From positions 36,627 through 70,516 of the forward strand of contig PAQF01000030.1 in NCBI GenBank assembly GCA_002709695.1: DNA of 33,890 nucleotides, written 5' to 3'. The stretch's first letter is position 1. The number at the start of each line of letters is the position of its first letter. Below, piece by piece: positions 20,511 through 33,890 of the stretch. Origin of the DNA: Candidatus Poribacteria bacterium (lineage in GTDB: Bacteria > Poribacteria > WGA-4E > UBA9662). The notes beneath the pieces were generated by a model. The model was not told the DNA's origin. It made no database searches and was given only the letters and a program-made list of their open reading frames with translations. Made by a program: the position numbers and the translations under genes.

Positions 20511-22442
20511 ATGCTAACTCAATCCCGAAATTCTCTGAACCAACGAACTGGTATTCGTTGGTTCGCCATATTAGTTGGGCTATTTCTCATTCCGTTTAAT
20601 TCGTTCTGGATTATGCAGATGGAAGCGGTCTATTATTCAGCGCATTCAACGACCTATTCTCTCTTTTTCAATACCATCTGTAGCTTATTAGTTTTAGTAG
20701 CTGTTAATGTGCCGTTGAGAAAAGTACATCGTAATCTAGCTTTGAATCGCGAAGAATTAATTACAGTTTTCGTCATGTTGAATCAGAGTTCTGCTTTGGT
20801 TGGGCATAGTATGCTACAAATTCTACCGTCCACCATGGCAGCGCCTTTTGGTTTATCAACACCAGAGAACGAATGGATACAATTATTTAGCCAGCACATT
20901 CCAACGTGGTTGATCATTAGCGATACACACGCTTTAGAAAACTACATTAAGGGAGGGAAAAGTGAATCCTCTCTATATATAGCAGAGCATTTTAATGCTT
21001 GGTTGATACCAGTTCTTATCTGGTCTGTGTTTATATGTCTGTTAATGTTTGTCATGATTTGTATCAACACCATTCTTAGACAACATTGGATGAACCAGGA
21101 AAGGTTAGCGTTTCCCATTGCTCAACTACCGAATGAAATTGCTAATCCTGAATCCGGGTTCTTCAAAAATAAACTATTCCTAATTAGCTGCGCTCTTGTG
21201 AGCATCATAAATATTGTTAATGGGTTGCACTTCCTTTTGCCTCAAGTTCCTTATTTACGAGTTGCTCCATACGATCTAGGGGTGTTTTTTACTAACAAAC
21301 CTTGGGATGCTATGGGGTATATGCCGTTTACACTTCGTCCTTTTCTAATTGGGCTTATTTTTCTGATCCCTTTAGATATAACCTTCTCTTGTTGGGTTTT
21401 CTTCTTTTTCTGGAAAGCTCAGCTTGTTGTAGGCAGTGCTCTGGGTTATCAACAGCGGCCGGAGTTTCCCGAACAAAGTGCAGGTGCCTACATTGCCCTG
21501 TGTTTCATTGCAGTTTGGATGGCTAGAAGACACATCCTAGGCATTTTTAAGTCGTTATTTCAGACATCCGCTGGTAATACCCAAATTATTACGGAACCAT
21601 TACCATACAAAACGGCTGTATTAGGTGGGATTGTTGGGTTTTTGCTGATGATAGTTTTCTGTTGTTGGGCGGGAATGTCTTTCTGGATAGCAGGGCTCTT
21701 CTTTACATTATATTTAATGACTGCTATCTCTGTAACGCGAGTTCGGGCTGAAGTTGGATCGCCGATCCACGACTTGCATTTTGCCGGTCCCGAATATCTG
21801 ATTATTAATGCTTTTGGAACTAGAAAACTTGGTCCAGGAAACTTAGCCATTTTGCCATTTTTCTGGTTTTTAACACGGGCTCATTACAGTGATGTAATGC
21901 CCCATCAATTGGAAGGGTTCAAGCTTGCTGACAGAGCTAAAGGATATAATCGGCGTTTTTTAGTTGCTATGCTAGTCGCAACTATCTTTGGTACGCTTGT
22001 CGCCTTCTGGGCTATATTAGATTCTACTTATCGACACAGTGGAGCAGCGATGTCATGGGCAGGTAGAGAATCTTTTTCGCGTTTGGCTCTCTGGTTGTCT
22101 CATCCAGAGCCAATGAACATCACAGGTATGGTGTTCTTTATATATGGTCTTCTTTTTGGTATTTTCATTATGTTTATGCGAACCAAATTTTTGTGGTGGT
22201 CGTTGCACCCAGCTGGATATGCAGTATCAAGTACATATGGAATGAGGGATTACTGGTCTTTATTTGTCTTGGTATGGTTAATTAAATGGTTAATTTTAAA
22301 ACTTGGGGGATTAAAAGCACATCGACGGGTCTTGCCCATTTTTTATGGTATGATTGTCGGCGAATTTGCCGTGGGAGGTTTCTGGGCACTGTTTGGCATT
22401 TTATTCAGGACGCAGACTTTCAACTTCACAGCTTGGTGGTAG
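20511..22442 (+). CDS. Multi-spanning membrane protein, DUF6785/DUF6784 type
   Basis: 643 residues dominated by about a dozen hydrophobic segments, beginning with IRWFAILVGLFLIPFNSFW at 15-33. Blocks conserved with the paralogue at 29806 include TPEN.W..LF..HIP near 117, NKPWDA and FLIGLIFLIPLDITFS in the middle, TRVRAEVGSP near 409, MPHQLEGFK near 463, and LHPAGYAVSS plus YWS toward the end. I recognise these as the uncharacterised DUF6785/DUF6784 family, found in Poribacteria- and Planctomycetes-like genomes. The function is not established; the topology and the RVRAE.G.P loop suggest a transporter. No strong ribosome site precedes ATG 20511, but the hydrophobic start supports it. It heads a run of six same-strand genes including a GH36 enzyme, so uptake of the substrate is inferred. 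Confidence 0.8.
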   Translation: MLTQSRNSLNQRTGIRWFAILVGLFLIPFNSFWIMQMEAVYYSAHSTTYSLFFNTICSLLVLVAVNVPLRKVHRNLALNREELITVFVMLNQSSALVGHSMLQILPSTMAAPFGLSTPENEWIQLFSQHIPTWLIISDTHALENYIKGGKSESSLYIAEHFNAWLIPVLIWSVFICLLMFVMICINTILRQHWMNQERLAFPIAQLPNEIANPESGFFKNKLFLISCALVSIINIVNGLHFLLPQVPYLRVAPYDLGVFFTNKPWDAMGYMPFTLRPFLIGLIFLIPLDITFSCWVFFFFWKAQLVVGSALGYQQRPEFPEQSAGAYIALCFIAVWMARRHILGIFKSLFQTSAGNTQIITEPLPYKTAVLGGIVGFLLMIVFCCWAGMSFWIAGLFFTLYLMTAISVTRVRAEVGSPIHDLHFAGPEYLIINAFGTRKLGPGNLAILPFFWFLTRAHYSDVMPHQLEGFKLADRAKGYNRRFLVAMLVATIFGTLVAFWAILDSTYRHSGAAMSWAGRESFSRLALWLSHPEPMNITGMVFFIYGLLFGIFIMFMRTKFLWWSLHPAGYAVSSTYGMRDYWSLFVLVWLIKWLILKLGGLKAHRRVLPIFYGMIVGEFAVGGFWALFGILFRTQTFNFTAWW

Positions 22443-29805: not shown

Positions 29806-31761
29806 TTAACCAGGAGCAAAATCATAAATTGGTTGTTGAATGACAACGCTCAATACACTCCAAAATGCACCTACACAATATTCACCTAATAGAACACCAA
29901 AGAAAAATAGCACCGCTTTCTGATACAAGGTGACACCACCAAATCTCAAGATAATCAATTTAATGGTAGAACTTATTACCAAACATGACCAAAAGTAACG
30001 AACACCACCCGCCATCGAAATAGCGTATCCAGCGGGATGGAGGGGCCACCAGATAAATCGCATTCGCATCAGCATTAAAATAAAAGTGAAGGCCATGCTG
30101 CCTGCCATGAACCCAACGGCAGGAATATCCATTTCTTTAGGGTAAGTCAGTGTAGTATCAAGCCATTGGAAGATATAAGTCACATGCTTGATAGAAGGAC
30201 CAATTCCGCCACCTGCACCGGTGACGGCGCCACCTAAGCGATAAAGTTCACTTATTGTAGCCCAAAAGGAAGCAATCGAACCAAAGATTACAGCGATGAT
30301 CATTGCTGTAACCAGTCGTTTGGTATTCATTTGGGTTCGCTCTGCCATCTTGAACGATTCGAGTTGATGAGGCATTATGTGCTCTCTATAACCACGGCCA
30401 CTAAAAAACCAAAAGAGTGTAAAAACAGTCAGGTTCTTTGGTCCAACTGCACGCGTCCCCAACAGGTTTATCAGAAACCGTTGTCCATTTACCCAACCGG
30501 CCATTTGGTGAGCGGGAGGGCCAATTTCCGCACGAACTCTTGTGATGGCCAAGGACAGTGCAAAAAAGAAAGCAAAATAAGGGAGAATGATCAGCAATGT
30601 CATCCCAGCTTTCAGACAGAACCAAATAATAAATGTACTCGCTAAAATAATCAGCAAAATAGCCGTCCGGTAACGAATAGGTTCGGTGGAATCATCGATA
30701 TCGCTCGGTCTCCCCAAAACGACGTTTACTACATTTAGCAGGTGCCTTCTTGTTATGGCCAATGTTGCGATGAAAATTGCCATCCAAGCCCCAATAGATT
30801 GTTCATCAAAATATGGGTATGGTAATGGCATGCTAACCGCACTAGCAAAAACTCGCTGTAGCTTTTCGAAAACATAGAAGAACCAGATTGAAAACGAGAG
30901 ATCAAGTGGCAATAAAAACCCAAGGCCTATCACAAAGGGGTATAGTGGAACGGGGATACCTCCAACAGCATTCCACGGTTTTTCCGTAAAGAATCTTCCC
31001 CAGTTTCGTGCGTTGTGATGAACACTAAAATCTGGTAGGGATGGGTAAAAGTATGCCAGACCATGCCAGATGTCCAGCACAGCAGCAATGATAAAACCGT
31101 ACCATAATACACGATTTTGAAAGAAACCGGAAGTACCTCCTCTATCTGTAATTGCCAATGGTAGCTGAATAATCGGATACGCTAGCTTTTCGTGCTCTGT
31201 CCACTGCTTACGGACAATCACGTTCATACAAATCATGATCACACCAAGTGCAAGAATGAATACTGTCCACCATAGTGTTGGACCGATCCATGCATTTAGG
31301 ATTTTAGAGGTGTAAAAATTAGTATCACCTTCGTAAAATCCACGAATAATTTCTGTATCAGCGACAACAAGGTGCCTTGGTATATGGGGATGAAAAAGGG
31401 ATGCCCAGTCATTTTCAGGTGTAGCAAACCAAAAGGCGTGGGGAATGGCTGGAATGGTCAGGGCAAGTGTATCATGACCAGCAAGTCCAGATGCAATTGA
31501 GAGCATGGCATAGATGGTAATCATCTCAGCTTGTGTCAATGCTGCTCTCGGTGTAACCTTCTTCAGGAGGAGATTAATCAGGATCAAACCGAATAGATTG
31601 AGGACAACATTCCAAAACAGCGAGATGGTTGTGGGGTGACCAGAGTGCCAAATACATTCGACCTCGATAACCCAAAAAACATTCGGTGGTATCAGCAGAA
31701 GTCCAATCAGGATTGAACGCCAAGTAACAGCTGTTTGATGGTGCTGATTTCTCTGTTTCAC
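29806..31761 (-). CDS. Multi-spanning membrane protein, DUF6785/DUF6784 type
   Basis: About 651 residues from GTG 31761, paralogue of the 20511 gene. Shared blocks include TPENDWASLFHPHIP, EKPWNAVGG, IGLGFLLPLDLSFSIWFFY, TRVRAEIGPPAHQ, MPHQLESFKMA and WWPLHPAGYAIS. Roughly a dozen membrane segments are seen, the first being WRSILIGLLLIPPNVFWVI. A TTG at 31773 would add four residues, but GGTGG is well placed only for 31761, which also matches the paralogue's N-terminal length. It is transcribed toward the FG-GAP gene and separated from it by 120 bases. Two 12-base perfect palindromes lie in its upstream gap. A transporter role is inferred from topology; the family is uncharacterised. Confidence 0.8.
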   Translation of the reverse strand: MKQRNQHHQTAVTWRSILIGLLLIPPNVFWVIEVECIWHSGHPTTISLFWNVVLNLFGLILINLLLKKVTPRAALTQAEMITIYAMLSIASGLAGHDTLALTIPAIPHAFWFATPENDWASLFHPHIPRHLVVADTEIIRGFYEGDTNFYTSKILNAWIGPTLWWTVFILALGVIMICMNVIVRKQWTEHEKLAYPIIQLPLAITDRGGTSGFFQNRVLWYGFIIAAVLDIWHGLAYFYPSLPDFSVHHNARNWGRFFTEKPWNAVGGIPVPLYPFVIGLGFLLPLDLSFSIWFFYVFEKLQRVFASAVSMPLPYPYFDEQSIGAWMAIFIATLAITRRHLLNVVNVVLGRPSDIDDSTEPIRYRTAILLIILASTFIIWFCLKAGMTLLIILPYFAFFFALSLAITRVRAEIGPPAHQMAGWVNGQRFLINLLGTRAVGPKNLTVFTLFWFFSGRGYREHIMPHQLESFKMAERTQMNTKRLVTAMIIAVIFGSIASFWATISELYRLGGAVTGAGGGIGPSIKHVTYIFQWLDTTLTYPKEMDIPAVGFMAGSMAFTFILMLMRMRFIWWPLHPAGYAISMAGGVRYFWSCLVISSTIKLIILRFGGVTLYQKAVLFFFGVLLGEYCVGAFWSVLSVVIQQPIYDFAPG

Positions 31762-31803
31762 ATATGCCACCAATATAATTATCGATTCACAATTCTAACT
31801 GTG

Positions 31804-31959: not shown

Positions 31960-32898
31960 CTACTGCTGCGCAACAGGGAATCCTGACACACATCGAAAGC
32001 CGGAGTTGGGGTTGAGCCTACGATTCGGAGTGTTGCTGAGGCGGTAAGCTACCCGCAGGGTGAGAGTACCGCTGGTCCAATGACCACCCCGCAAAACACG
32101 GGTACTACCCGAACTTGGTCCTTGAGGATTACGTAAAGGCGATTTGCTATAATAATCTTTATCATACCAGTCAGAACACCACTCCCAAACGTTGCCCGCC
32201 ATGTCGTAGAGACTGTAGCCGTTGGGCTTGAAACTACCTACCGGTGCTGCTAATTTATCCCACTTGTCCTTACCATCGGTGCGCTTGTAATTGGCATAAT
32301 CTCGTGCCACCTTTTCATCATCACCCCAGGGATACCGTTTGCCTACTTGGCCACCTCGGCCTGCGTACTCCCATTCTGCTTCGGTGGGTAGACGCTTGCC
32401 AGCCCACTTGGTATAAGCAGTCGCGTCGTTCCAACTGACATAAATCACCGGGTGTTTGTCAGTAGGCGAATACTTTTTCACCTCATTCCAGAATCTATTG
32501 ATTTCCCAGCCTCCTTTAACTGCCTCAGGCTTATATCCACTCTCCTTGAGAAACCTTTTAAATTGACCAACTGTTATCTGGTGGCTATCCATGTAAAAAT
32601 CATCTAGTTCTACCTTATGCACCGGCAGGGCATTCGACATCTTATCCAAATGATCCCCCATCTGAAAGGATCCGCTTGGGATCAGCACCATTTTTGATCC
32701 ATCCTTCTCCCAGGTGATCTTTTTTTCATCTTCAACTAAAGCTTCATCTTCAACTAAATCCTTGATAGCTTTGTCTTCAACTAAAGCTTCATCTTCAACT
32801 AAATCCTTGATAGATTTGTCTTCATCATCAGCAATCTCCTCACCACATCCAACAAAAACAACCACCAGCACGAACAACATCCAACTAAATTTCCACAT
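31960..32898 (-). CDS. Lipoprotein with FGE-sulfatase-like (SUMF1) domain, catalytic cysteines absent
   Basis: 312 residues. A lipoprotein signal (MLFVLVVVFVGC, lipid-modified C18) is followed by an acidic stalk of two identical-type 15-residue repeats at 28-57 (IKDLVEDEALVED). The SUMF1/EgtB-like fold comes next: MVLIPSGSFQMGD, PVHKVELDDFYMD, ITVGQFKRF, HPVIYVSWNDA, KRLPTEAEWEYAGRGG, YDMAGNVWEWCSDWY and SGFRCVSG. In formylglycine-generating enzymes two cysteines lie just after RGGSW. Here that stretch reads RGGHWTSGTLTLRVAYR with none, so sulfatase activation is unlikely. It may be a binding or scaffold member of the family. Its ATG overlaps the stop of the upstream oxidoreductase by one base (TAATG), with GGAGGAG just ahead, so the two are translationally coupled. 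Confidence 0.88.
   Translation of the reverse strand: MWKFSWMLFVLVVVFVGCGEEIADDEDKSIKDLVEDEALVEDKAIKDLVEDEALVEDEKKITWEKDGSKMVLIPSGSFQMGDHLDKMSNALPVHKVELDDFYMDSHQITVGQFKRFLKESGYKPEAVKGGWEINRFWNEVKKYSPTDKHPVIYVSWNDATAYTKWAGKRLPTEAEWEYAGRGGQVGKRYPWGDDEKVARDYANYKRTDGKDKWDKLAAPVGSFKPNGYSLYDMAGNVWEWCSDWYDKDYYSKSPLRNPQGPSSGSTRVLRGGHWTSGTLTLRVAYRLSNTPNRRLNPNSGFRCVSGFPVAQQ
32728..32817 (-). repeat. Two 45-bp tandem repeats in the lipoprotein stalk
   Basis: Two 45-base copies (32728-32772 and 32773-32817) encode the 15-residue units K[AS]IKDLVEDEALVED. They are almost identical in DNA, differing mainly at the alanine/serine codon, so the stalk was lengthened by recent slippage or duplication. Within each unit LVED is itself repeated. 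Confidence 0.75.
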
Positions 32899-33890
32899 TA
32901 TACTCCTCCAATCGTTCCTGCAACCATAGGTTCAGCTACATCTCCGTTTTTAATCATACTTAATAGCGGCGAATCTTCTATGTCAAGTGGGAGGGTTATT
33001 TTTTTTCGGCAGCGACTGGATTCATAGGTGGCAAATATTAATTCAGTCGCTTGTAATGCTTTTCGCCCACTAAGTTCTGGTTCCTCTCCAGTTTTAACGC
33101 ATTCTATCAAGTTAAGCACCGATAGAGTTGTATCATTATAACCTTCAGGAACAGCACCTCGAGGGTCCACTGTTTCCCAATCGGATGCTCCTCGGGCTAA
33201 TACCCGTAATGATACCCCGGATGAGTGAACCTCGATCCTTCCGTGGGTGCCGATGAGCCTATTTCCTGCACCTGTTATCCCTGTTCCGCCTGTTCCGAGT
33301 AACCCTTCCAACCCGTTTTTCCAGCGGATCCAAGATAGACCACAATTTTCAACTGGTACGCCAAATACTCTATGGGTTGATGTTCCGTCAATTTGGCCGA
33401 TAACCCAATCTACTGGCTCATCGTTGTTGTAAAAGAAGAACATGTCGAACCAGTGAGTACCCCAGTCTAGTAAGTTGCCACAGGATGCTTCAACACGAAC
33501 AAGATCACCAATTGTACCATCGTGTGCTAACTCCCTTGCTCTAACAAATTCGGGTCCAAATCGACGTTGATGACAAAATGTAATCATGACATGATTATCA
33601 ACGCAAGCTTGGTATTGTTTTTTTGATTCTCCCCAAGTAGGAGCCATTGGTTTTTCTGCATGGATAGCTTGGATACCACTGTTAGCTGCATTGACAATCA
33701 TGTCAGTGTGCATTTCGATCCAAGTGCAAACGCTGACAAAATCAAGGTCTTCCTGATCTAGCATCTCATTGTAGTCCTGATAAACTTTTGGTACACTGAA
33801 ATGCTCGGCAAAATTGTTCCCACTATCTTCAATAGGGTCAGCACAGGCAATAATATCGACGTCATCTGATGCCTGGTAACCTTGGGCATG
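32898..33890 (-). CDS. Gfo/Idh/MocA-family oxidoreductase, partial (runs off right edge)
   Basis: 330 codons are visible and the frame is open to the window edge, so the true start and the first Rossmann motif are outside. The visible N-terminal part (VDIIACADP, then DLDFVSVCTW) is the NAD-binding fold. The signature EKP is in IHAEKPMAPT, and a likely active-site histidine is in DWGTHWFDMFFF. The C-terminal beta-sheet domain contains GTGGTGITGAGNRLIGTHGR. Family members oxidise or reduce sugars and inositols with NAD(P). The stop codon overlaps the lipoprotein start (TAATG), which indicates an operon. The substrate cannot be assigned; action on a sugar is the usual case for this family. Confidence 0.88.
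   Translation of the reverse strand, partial: HAQGYQASDDVDIIACADPIEDSGNNFAEHFSVPKVYQDYNEMLDQEDLDFVSVCTWIEMHTDMIVNAANSGIQAIHAEKPMAPTWGESKKQYQACVDNHVMITFCHQRRFGPEFVRARELAHDGTIGDLVRVEASCGNLLDWGTHWFDMFFFYNNDEPVDWVIGQIDGTSTHRVFGVPVENCGLSWIRWKNGLEGLLGTGGTGITGAGNRLIGTHGRIEVHSSGVSLRVLARGASDWETVDPRGAVPEGYNDTTLSVLNLIECVKTGEEPELSGRKALQATELIFATYESSRCRKKITLPLDIEDSPLLSMIKNGDVAEPMVAGTIGGV

Follow-up and report, generated by a model that had tools for sequence, protein, structure and literature searches.

A putative lipid-anchored FGE-fold protein of Candidatus Poribacteria with loops bearing the codon pattern of a DGR target

The window analysed here, i.e. the whole stretch of 33,890 nucleotides taken from a contig of Candidatus Poribacteria, contains a gene (31960-32898, minus strand) encoding a putative lipoprotein with the fold of the formylglycine-generating enzyme (FGE), hereafter the focal gene. 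Its product is very probably a lipid-anchored binding protein of the C-type-lectin fold, with loops that would have been recently rewritten by a diversity-generating retroelement (DGR), the core of which may be unbinned, lost or located elsewhere. Since the active-site loop appears as a variable region, the most likely role of the protein is to bind a ligand while carried on a lipid-anchored stalk; surface exposure, which goes beyond lipid anchoring, is something that we infer. Poribacteria are known mainly from sponges and marine particles.

The focal gene and its surroundings

The features of the locus are listed below, from upstream to downstream.

32898-33764, minus strand: gene for a GFO/IDH/MocA-type oxidoreductase, located upstream and overlapping the start of the focal gene by one base (TAATG)
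32903-32909, minus strand: Shine-Dalgarno-like GGAGGAG, read from the sequence preceding the focal gene
31960-32898, minus strand: gene for the FGE-fold lipoprotein, 312 amino acids, ATG start
32845-32898, minus strand: putative signal peptide with lipobox-like VFVGC and Cys18, read by eye from the translation
32729-32818, minus strand: acidic stalk, two tandem 45-nt repeats of 15 residues each, from repeat comparison
31987-32697, minus strand: PF03781 FGE-type (C-type-lectin-fold) domain, residues 68-304, from Pfam and the predicted fold
32002-32076, minus strand: DGR-like variable region, with loops at residues 275-280, 287-290 and 292-299
31979-31998, minus strand: conserved stretch TTTCGATGTGTGTCAGGATT right after the loops, a candidate IMH-like element
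31960-31976, minus strand: hairpin CTGTTGC-GCA-GCAGTAG, which includes the stop codon, from a shuffle test

The lipobox-like VFVGC spans residues 14-18, and the same pattern is present in part of the paralogues of the focal gene. The lipid anchor proposed in the initial annotation agrees with this signal as read by eye. The annotation had also described a stalk of two near-identical repeats: the two copies are indeed equal at 44 of 45 bases, with one mismatch, and are modelled, at modest confidence, as part of a single helix covering residues 27-57. As to the number of units in relatives, the two genes compared (L303 and L309, both from genome G002) have one K-A-[VL]-x-DLV unit ahead of the domain, against two in the focal gene, and for this reason the duplication looks recent and particular to the focal copy.

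A shared transcript of the focal gene and the oxidoreductase gene is possible, given their overlap. Elsewhere the window encodes three secreted proteins of the LamG type (PF13385; 7258-8070, 10101-10907 and 10996-11811), of which two are adjacent, and two DUF6785/DUF6784 membrane proteins (20511-22439 and 29809-31773).

Fold and catalytic cysteines

PF03781 is the sole Pfam domain of the focal protein (E 6.5e-71, profile positions 3-254 of 255), and the predicted structure has a mean pLDDT of 85.1. When the model was compared with known structures, the nearest folds were those of FGE (e.g. 2q17, 6muj and 1y1e; Z 31-33, rmsd 2.3-2.8), PvdO (Z 30.7) and TvpA, the variable protein 1 of Treponema denticola (PDB 2y3c; Z 30.0, rmsd 2.2 over 223 residues). 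CalU17 (Z 28.1), EgtB (Z 24.5) and the phage variable protein Mtd (Z 14.5) came after. In the predicted structure the FGE/SUMF1-type fold is thus intact, as initially annotated, and is common to FGE, EgtB and PvdO, the proteins with which a comparison had been proposed.

Three cysteines are present, at residues 18 (in the lipobox), 241 and 303. Alignment with relatives showed that Ser276 and Leu281 occupy the columns of the two catalytic cysteines of canonical relatives, both of which are therefore missing, as had been claimed; substitute cysteines at the active-site positions, named beforehand as grounds for abandoning that view, were looked for in the alignment and none was found. Cysteine loss by itself appears ordinary. 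The catalytic pair is present in only 6 of 38 aligned stretches from relatives, a few of which (e.g. L111) stop before the cysteine segment, and in none of the 46 motif-like strings obtained from loci of the own genome, some of which are out-of-frame noise. Since most of the aligned PF03781 relatives lack the pair, its absence is a weak argument for a binding protein; the original proposal of a binding derivative, and not a sulfatase activator, does fit the findings, but not for the reason then given.

Two enzymatic readings bear on these data. That the protein activates sulfatases in a non-canonical way, with no cysteine pair, is highly improbable. It would agree with the 59 PF00884 matches in the own genome, with the Cys-type motif found in at least 15 of the 30 sulfatase loci examined and with the finding of no canonical two-cysteine FGE among the own-genome motif strings; radical-SAM sulfatase maturases could however serve these sulfatases, and the candidate was rejected on the absence of both catalytic cysteines, for which no substitute is present. 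It is also very unlikely that the protein is an enzyme of the EgtB, PvdO or CalU17 kind, using the fold without the FGE cysteines. The likeness of fold reported above and sub-cut-off NCBIfam matches to PvdO and EgtB speak for such an enzyme, but these matches score 114 against a cut-off of 500 and 109 against 360, no further Pfam domain such as DinB is present, and the would-be active-site loops are the variable ones. Identity with EgtB, PvdO or SenA was discarded, all NCBIfam equivalog scores being below cut-off.

Codon signature of the variable loops

Downstream of RGGxW, three variable loops of six, four, and seven or eight residues are followed by LRVAYR, P and GFRC, respectively. In the focal gene the framework elements LRVAYR and P separate the three loops, the third of which is eight residues long. 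Among their 18 codons, 17 end in C or T, against 10.7 expected from codon usage (P 2e-4). The loop which bears the catalytic cysteines in true FGE has, in the focal gene, this DGR-type codon pattern: the fold is the same, the cysteine pair is absent and the loop is variable. The site of the FGE cysteines being a variable loop, the protein would be a binder and not a formylglycine-generating enzyme. One feature of DGR targets, a C-type-lectin-type fold with a C-terminal variable region, is present (loops within residues 275-299 of 312).

A DGR works through an error-prone reverse transcriptase (RT), which copies a template RNA and introduces mutations at adenines; the resulting cDNA takes the place of the variable region. 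AAC and AAT codons in this way become NNC and NNT, with codon positions 1 and 2 randomised and the third base, like the framework, left as in the template.

Loops were collected from three draft genomes of the family by a motif pattern, which yielded 28 sets in the own genome (G000), 26 in a genome of the same genus (G001) and 19 in one of another genus of the same family (G002). The resulting 73 sets come, for G001 and G002, from fetched copies only, and PF03781 copies outside the motif pattern were dropped. Sets with C or T as third base in at least 85% of loop codons were called codon-marked; 23 of the 73 reach this threshold (4 of 28, 7 of 26 and 12 of 19, respectively). Among the codon-marked copies, differences in the loops approach saturation at codon positions 1 and 2 and position 3 is kept, while the framework shows the reverse; as the third base was the criterion for this class, part of its low third-base difference follows from the selection itself.

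Column-wise tests address the identity of the kept base. The third base depends on the column in 22 marked loop sets, all with seven-residue third loops and not including the focal gene (z 15.6, 0 of 2000 shuffles), and position 1 is free (z -0.3). Column specificity of the third base is also found in 17 loops of G002 that were not chosen by codon (z 13.8); these were fetched mainly by protein similarity to the focal gene, three of them through an AAY-like pattern, and the 14 remaining after removal of the pattern-fetched loci give z 10.0. The specificity is absent in 36 codon-poor loops (z -0.5). Marked and codon-poor loops are both column-specific at position 2 (z 11.8 and z 11.9, respectively), which for this reason cannot separate the two classes.

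A third-base template shared across genera

A third-base template was built from the 17 G002 loops only and scored on 54 loops of G000 and G001. The focal gene matches it at 16 of 16 columns, with 4.2 expected, and is the best of the 54; its p of about 4e-10 treats codons as independent, as do the other p-values, and includes multiplication by the eight gap placements tried for its third loop. When the three loops fetched by the AAY pattern were left out of the template, the focal gene was again the best (13 of 13, p 2e-8). As a control, the same geometry was applied to 166 places in the body of the focal gene, where at most 9 of 16 columns matched. In both runs five of the 54 loops pass the Bonferroni threshold and nine have p < 0.01.

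The agreement extends to the framework codons, in which the focal gene differs at no third base from 4 of 19 G002 copies, at one from 6 and at two to five from 9. By contrast, where residues are identical in the gene bodies, the share of third bases that differ from the focal gene is 30% for L299, 65% for L319 and 59% for L295, three examples from the 32 comparisons listed out of 72. The combination of differing loop residues with agreeing silent and framework bases is what writing from a shared template would leave, unlike ordinary divergence, and a third-base fit without exception points to recent writing and not to an old relic.

Family members and relatives

PF03781 matches are present in all 84 phylum genomes searched, 45 of them in G000. 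At first look, candidates numbered 53, 95 and 127 in the genomes of the focal family and at most 38 elsewhere; scoring being capped at 27, these are unconfirmed counts. Within the family, 18 reciprocal best pairs between G000 and G001 keep 11 to 17 of 17 loop residues, a retention about equal to that of their bodies (70-90%), and much of the family appears to be inherited with fixed loops. Forty-five of the 54 G000 and G001 loops do not fit the template at p < 0.01. Because of this misfit and of the loops kept by the 18 pairs, most PF03781 family members in the genus are seen as lacking the DGR mark and apparently not being rewritten. Genes without an orthologue might have been expected to be the codon-marked ones, but they are not richer in C/T-ending codons (p 0.25), and this idea was dropped.

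These data also weigh on the view that the focal gene is an ordinary enzyme-fold paralogue, from a PF03781 family that multiplied and whose loops diverged by mutation and selection with no retroelement involved. The many copies in G000, the stable pairs, the misfitting loops and the failure to find RT, Avd or template (see below) all favour it. Amino-acid selection, on the other hand, would not keep silent C/T choices column by column; yet it is the silent base that is conserved in the focal gene and in a few more, with positions 1 and 2 near saturation, and all 16 columns of the focal gene fit a third-base template from another genus. On balance an ordinary paralogue is improbable, and loops rewritten by a DGR are the preferred reading of the focal gene.

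The focal gene has no reciprocal best partner among the G001 loop sets. Its closest relative, about 74-75% identical, is found in the other genus (G002:C155), the nearest one in the own genome being 68% identical, and the two loci have no neighbours in common. For these reasons an arrival of the gene already written, by transfer, would also fit.

Other members of the family differ in state and size. Two relatives of the focal gene with in-frame stops (L067:134-988, and L021 on G000:C12) are pseudogenes. Within about 10 kb on G000:C4 (L330) are found two genes for sulfatases and two for FGE-fold proteins, one of the latter being codon-marked (L009). In G002 (C58, loci L321, L325 and L327; C44), FGE-fold domains occur in open frames of 1331 to 4762 codons, so that giant multi-domain forms seem to exist.

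Elements downstream of the loops

A sequence closely similar to TTTCGATGTGTGTCAGGATT follows the loops in many codon-marked copies of the three genomes, and the stretch is a candidate for an IMH-like element. The hairpin at the end of the focal gene was not equalled in any of 200 shuffles. Hairpins scoring at least 5.5 are found in 8 of 35 copies codon-marked at 0.82 or more, against 0 of 37 other copies, with a cut-off chosen post hoc. In phage BPP-1 such a hairpin, also containing the stop codon, is needed for retrohoming, according to PMC3240598; as given there, the loop has four bases in phages of the BPP-1 type, against three in the focal gene.

Search for a DGR core

A template for these loops would be expected to resemble the loop segment around CTGCGGGTAGCTTACCGC and to be AAY-rich. 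Neither RT nor Avd was found in G000, G001 or G002, and no template was found in these genomes, where the matches were variable loops or scattered strings; in G000 (a draft, 96.15% complete; G002 is 80% complete) the template pattern matched about as often as a reversed-pattern control. The search for core and template was extended to viral contigs, where each of four patterns gave 0 matches, to phage records, with no match, and to plasmid records, with 30 matches; in each of these less than 80% of the query is covered, and the top four in the list are annotated as FGE family. Because RT, Avd and template were not found in the G000 draft, the focal gene is not classified as part of a complete DGR, and is filed as working like, or descended from, a DGR target. 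An open-literature search retrieved no account of this Poribacteria case; among the records listed, DGRs and Poribacteria occur together in a paper on deep-sea viruses, and Poribacteria and formylglycine in one on Latescibacteria.

Complete DGRs elsewhere in the phylum

RVT_1 matches are present in 43 of the 84 phylum genomes, and Avd passes its cut-off in 7. The DGR-like motif GNLTSQ was found in only 3 of the 30 RT loci scanned. A scan for adenine-biased repeats at six RT loci of the phylum gave clear pairs in L255 and L256 only and no pair in L253, L254, L257 or L258; AAY-rich template-like stretches are readable in L253, L254 and L257.

At locus L255 (genome G053) a template accompanies a PF03781 target, an RT bearing the GNLTSQ motif and an Avd that scores above the NF033474 cut-off. 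Over the best stretch of 90 nt all 14 mismatches fall at template adenines: the three loops hold 13 and the proline codon the remaining one. One non-adenine mismatch lies just beyond this stretch. In the best stretch of L256 (genome G071) all 15 mismatches are at template adenines, including two within the framework codon that precedes the second arginine. RTs closely related to that of L255, at least 84% identical, are found in G053, G071, G068 and G055, and a fifth one, at 49%, in G012. L255:5192-6661 is a complete Poribacteria DGR, the target of which joins cohesin, dockerin and FGE-type domains.

The targets of L255, L256 and L253 resemble the focal protein in phylum, in the PF03781 fold (detected by Pfam in L255 and L253, by reading in L256) and in the position of the loops. 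A GNA-loop hairpin is common to L255, L256 and the focal gene, following the variable region with a GTA loop in the former two and a GCA loop in the latter. Unlike the focal gene, these targets adjoin Avd, RT and template; those of L255 and L253 carry a dockerin (L255 also a cohesin), whereas the focal protein is a short lipoprotein form.

Discussion

In the proposed model an acidic helical stalk, lipid-anchored, would carry a C-type-lectin (FGE-type) domain with a ligand face made of the C-terminal loops (275-299), presumably written by a DGR. The core of this DGR may be unbinned, may have been lost recently or may act from elsewhere, or else the gene may have arrived written. A broader scenario, which we put forward as speculative and rather unlikely, is that of a scattered FGE-fold repertoire rewritten in part, in trans, from one template of a separate DGR core, probably mobile and crossing genera, on an unbinned element; the focal gene would be freshly written, and the stable paralogues would be retired specificities fixed by selection.

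Known systems offer partial parallels. TvpA has an FGE-type domain, as does the focal protein; it differs in that its own DGR is known, whereas the search for a core of the focal gene in three genomes, from two genera, found none, and the stalk of the focal protein is duplicated. In PMC4891356 the DGR targets of T. denticola are reported to have lipoprotein signals in most cases, and strains without RT and template to retain target genes, described as leftovers. FGE-type variable domains are likewise found in the targets of Thiohalocapsa PB-PSB1; some of these targets lie away from the RT and the template, and PMC10907252 gives action in trans as the best explanation. As described there, those targets differ from the focal protein in being STAND-NTPase conflict proteins and not lipoproteins, with the core present in the genome.

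The label 'formylglycine-generating enzyme' need not imply sulfatase activation in genomes of this kind. Few bacterial proteins are known to have binding sites varied on purpose, DGR targets being among them, and a lineage with dozens of FGE-fold genes, some of them sharing a silent-base template across genera with no machinery found, might reveal how repertoires of this kind come to be written, spread and then fixed.
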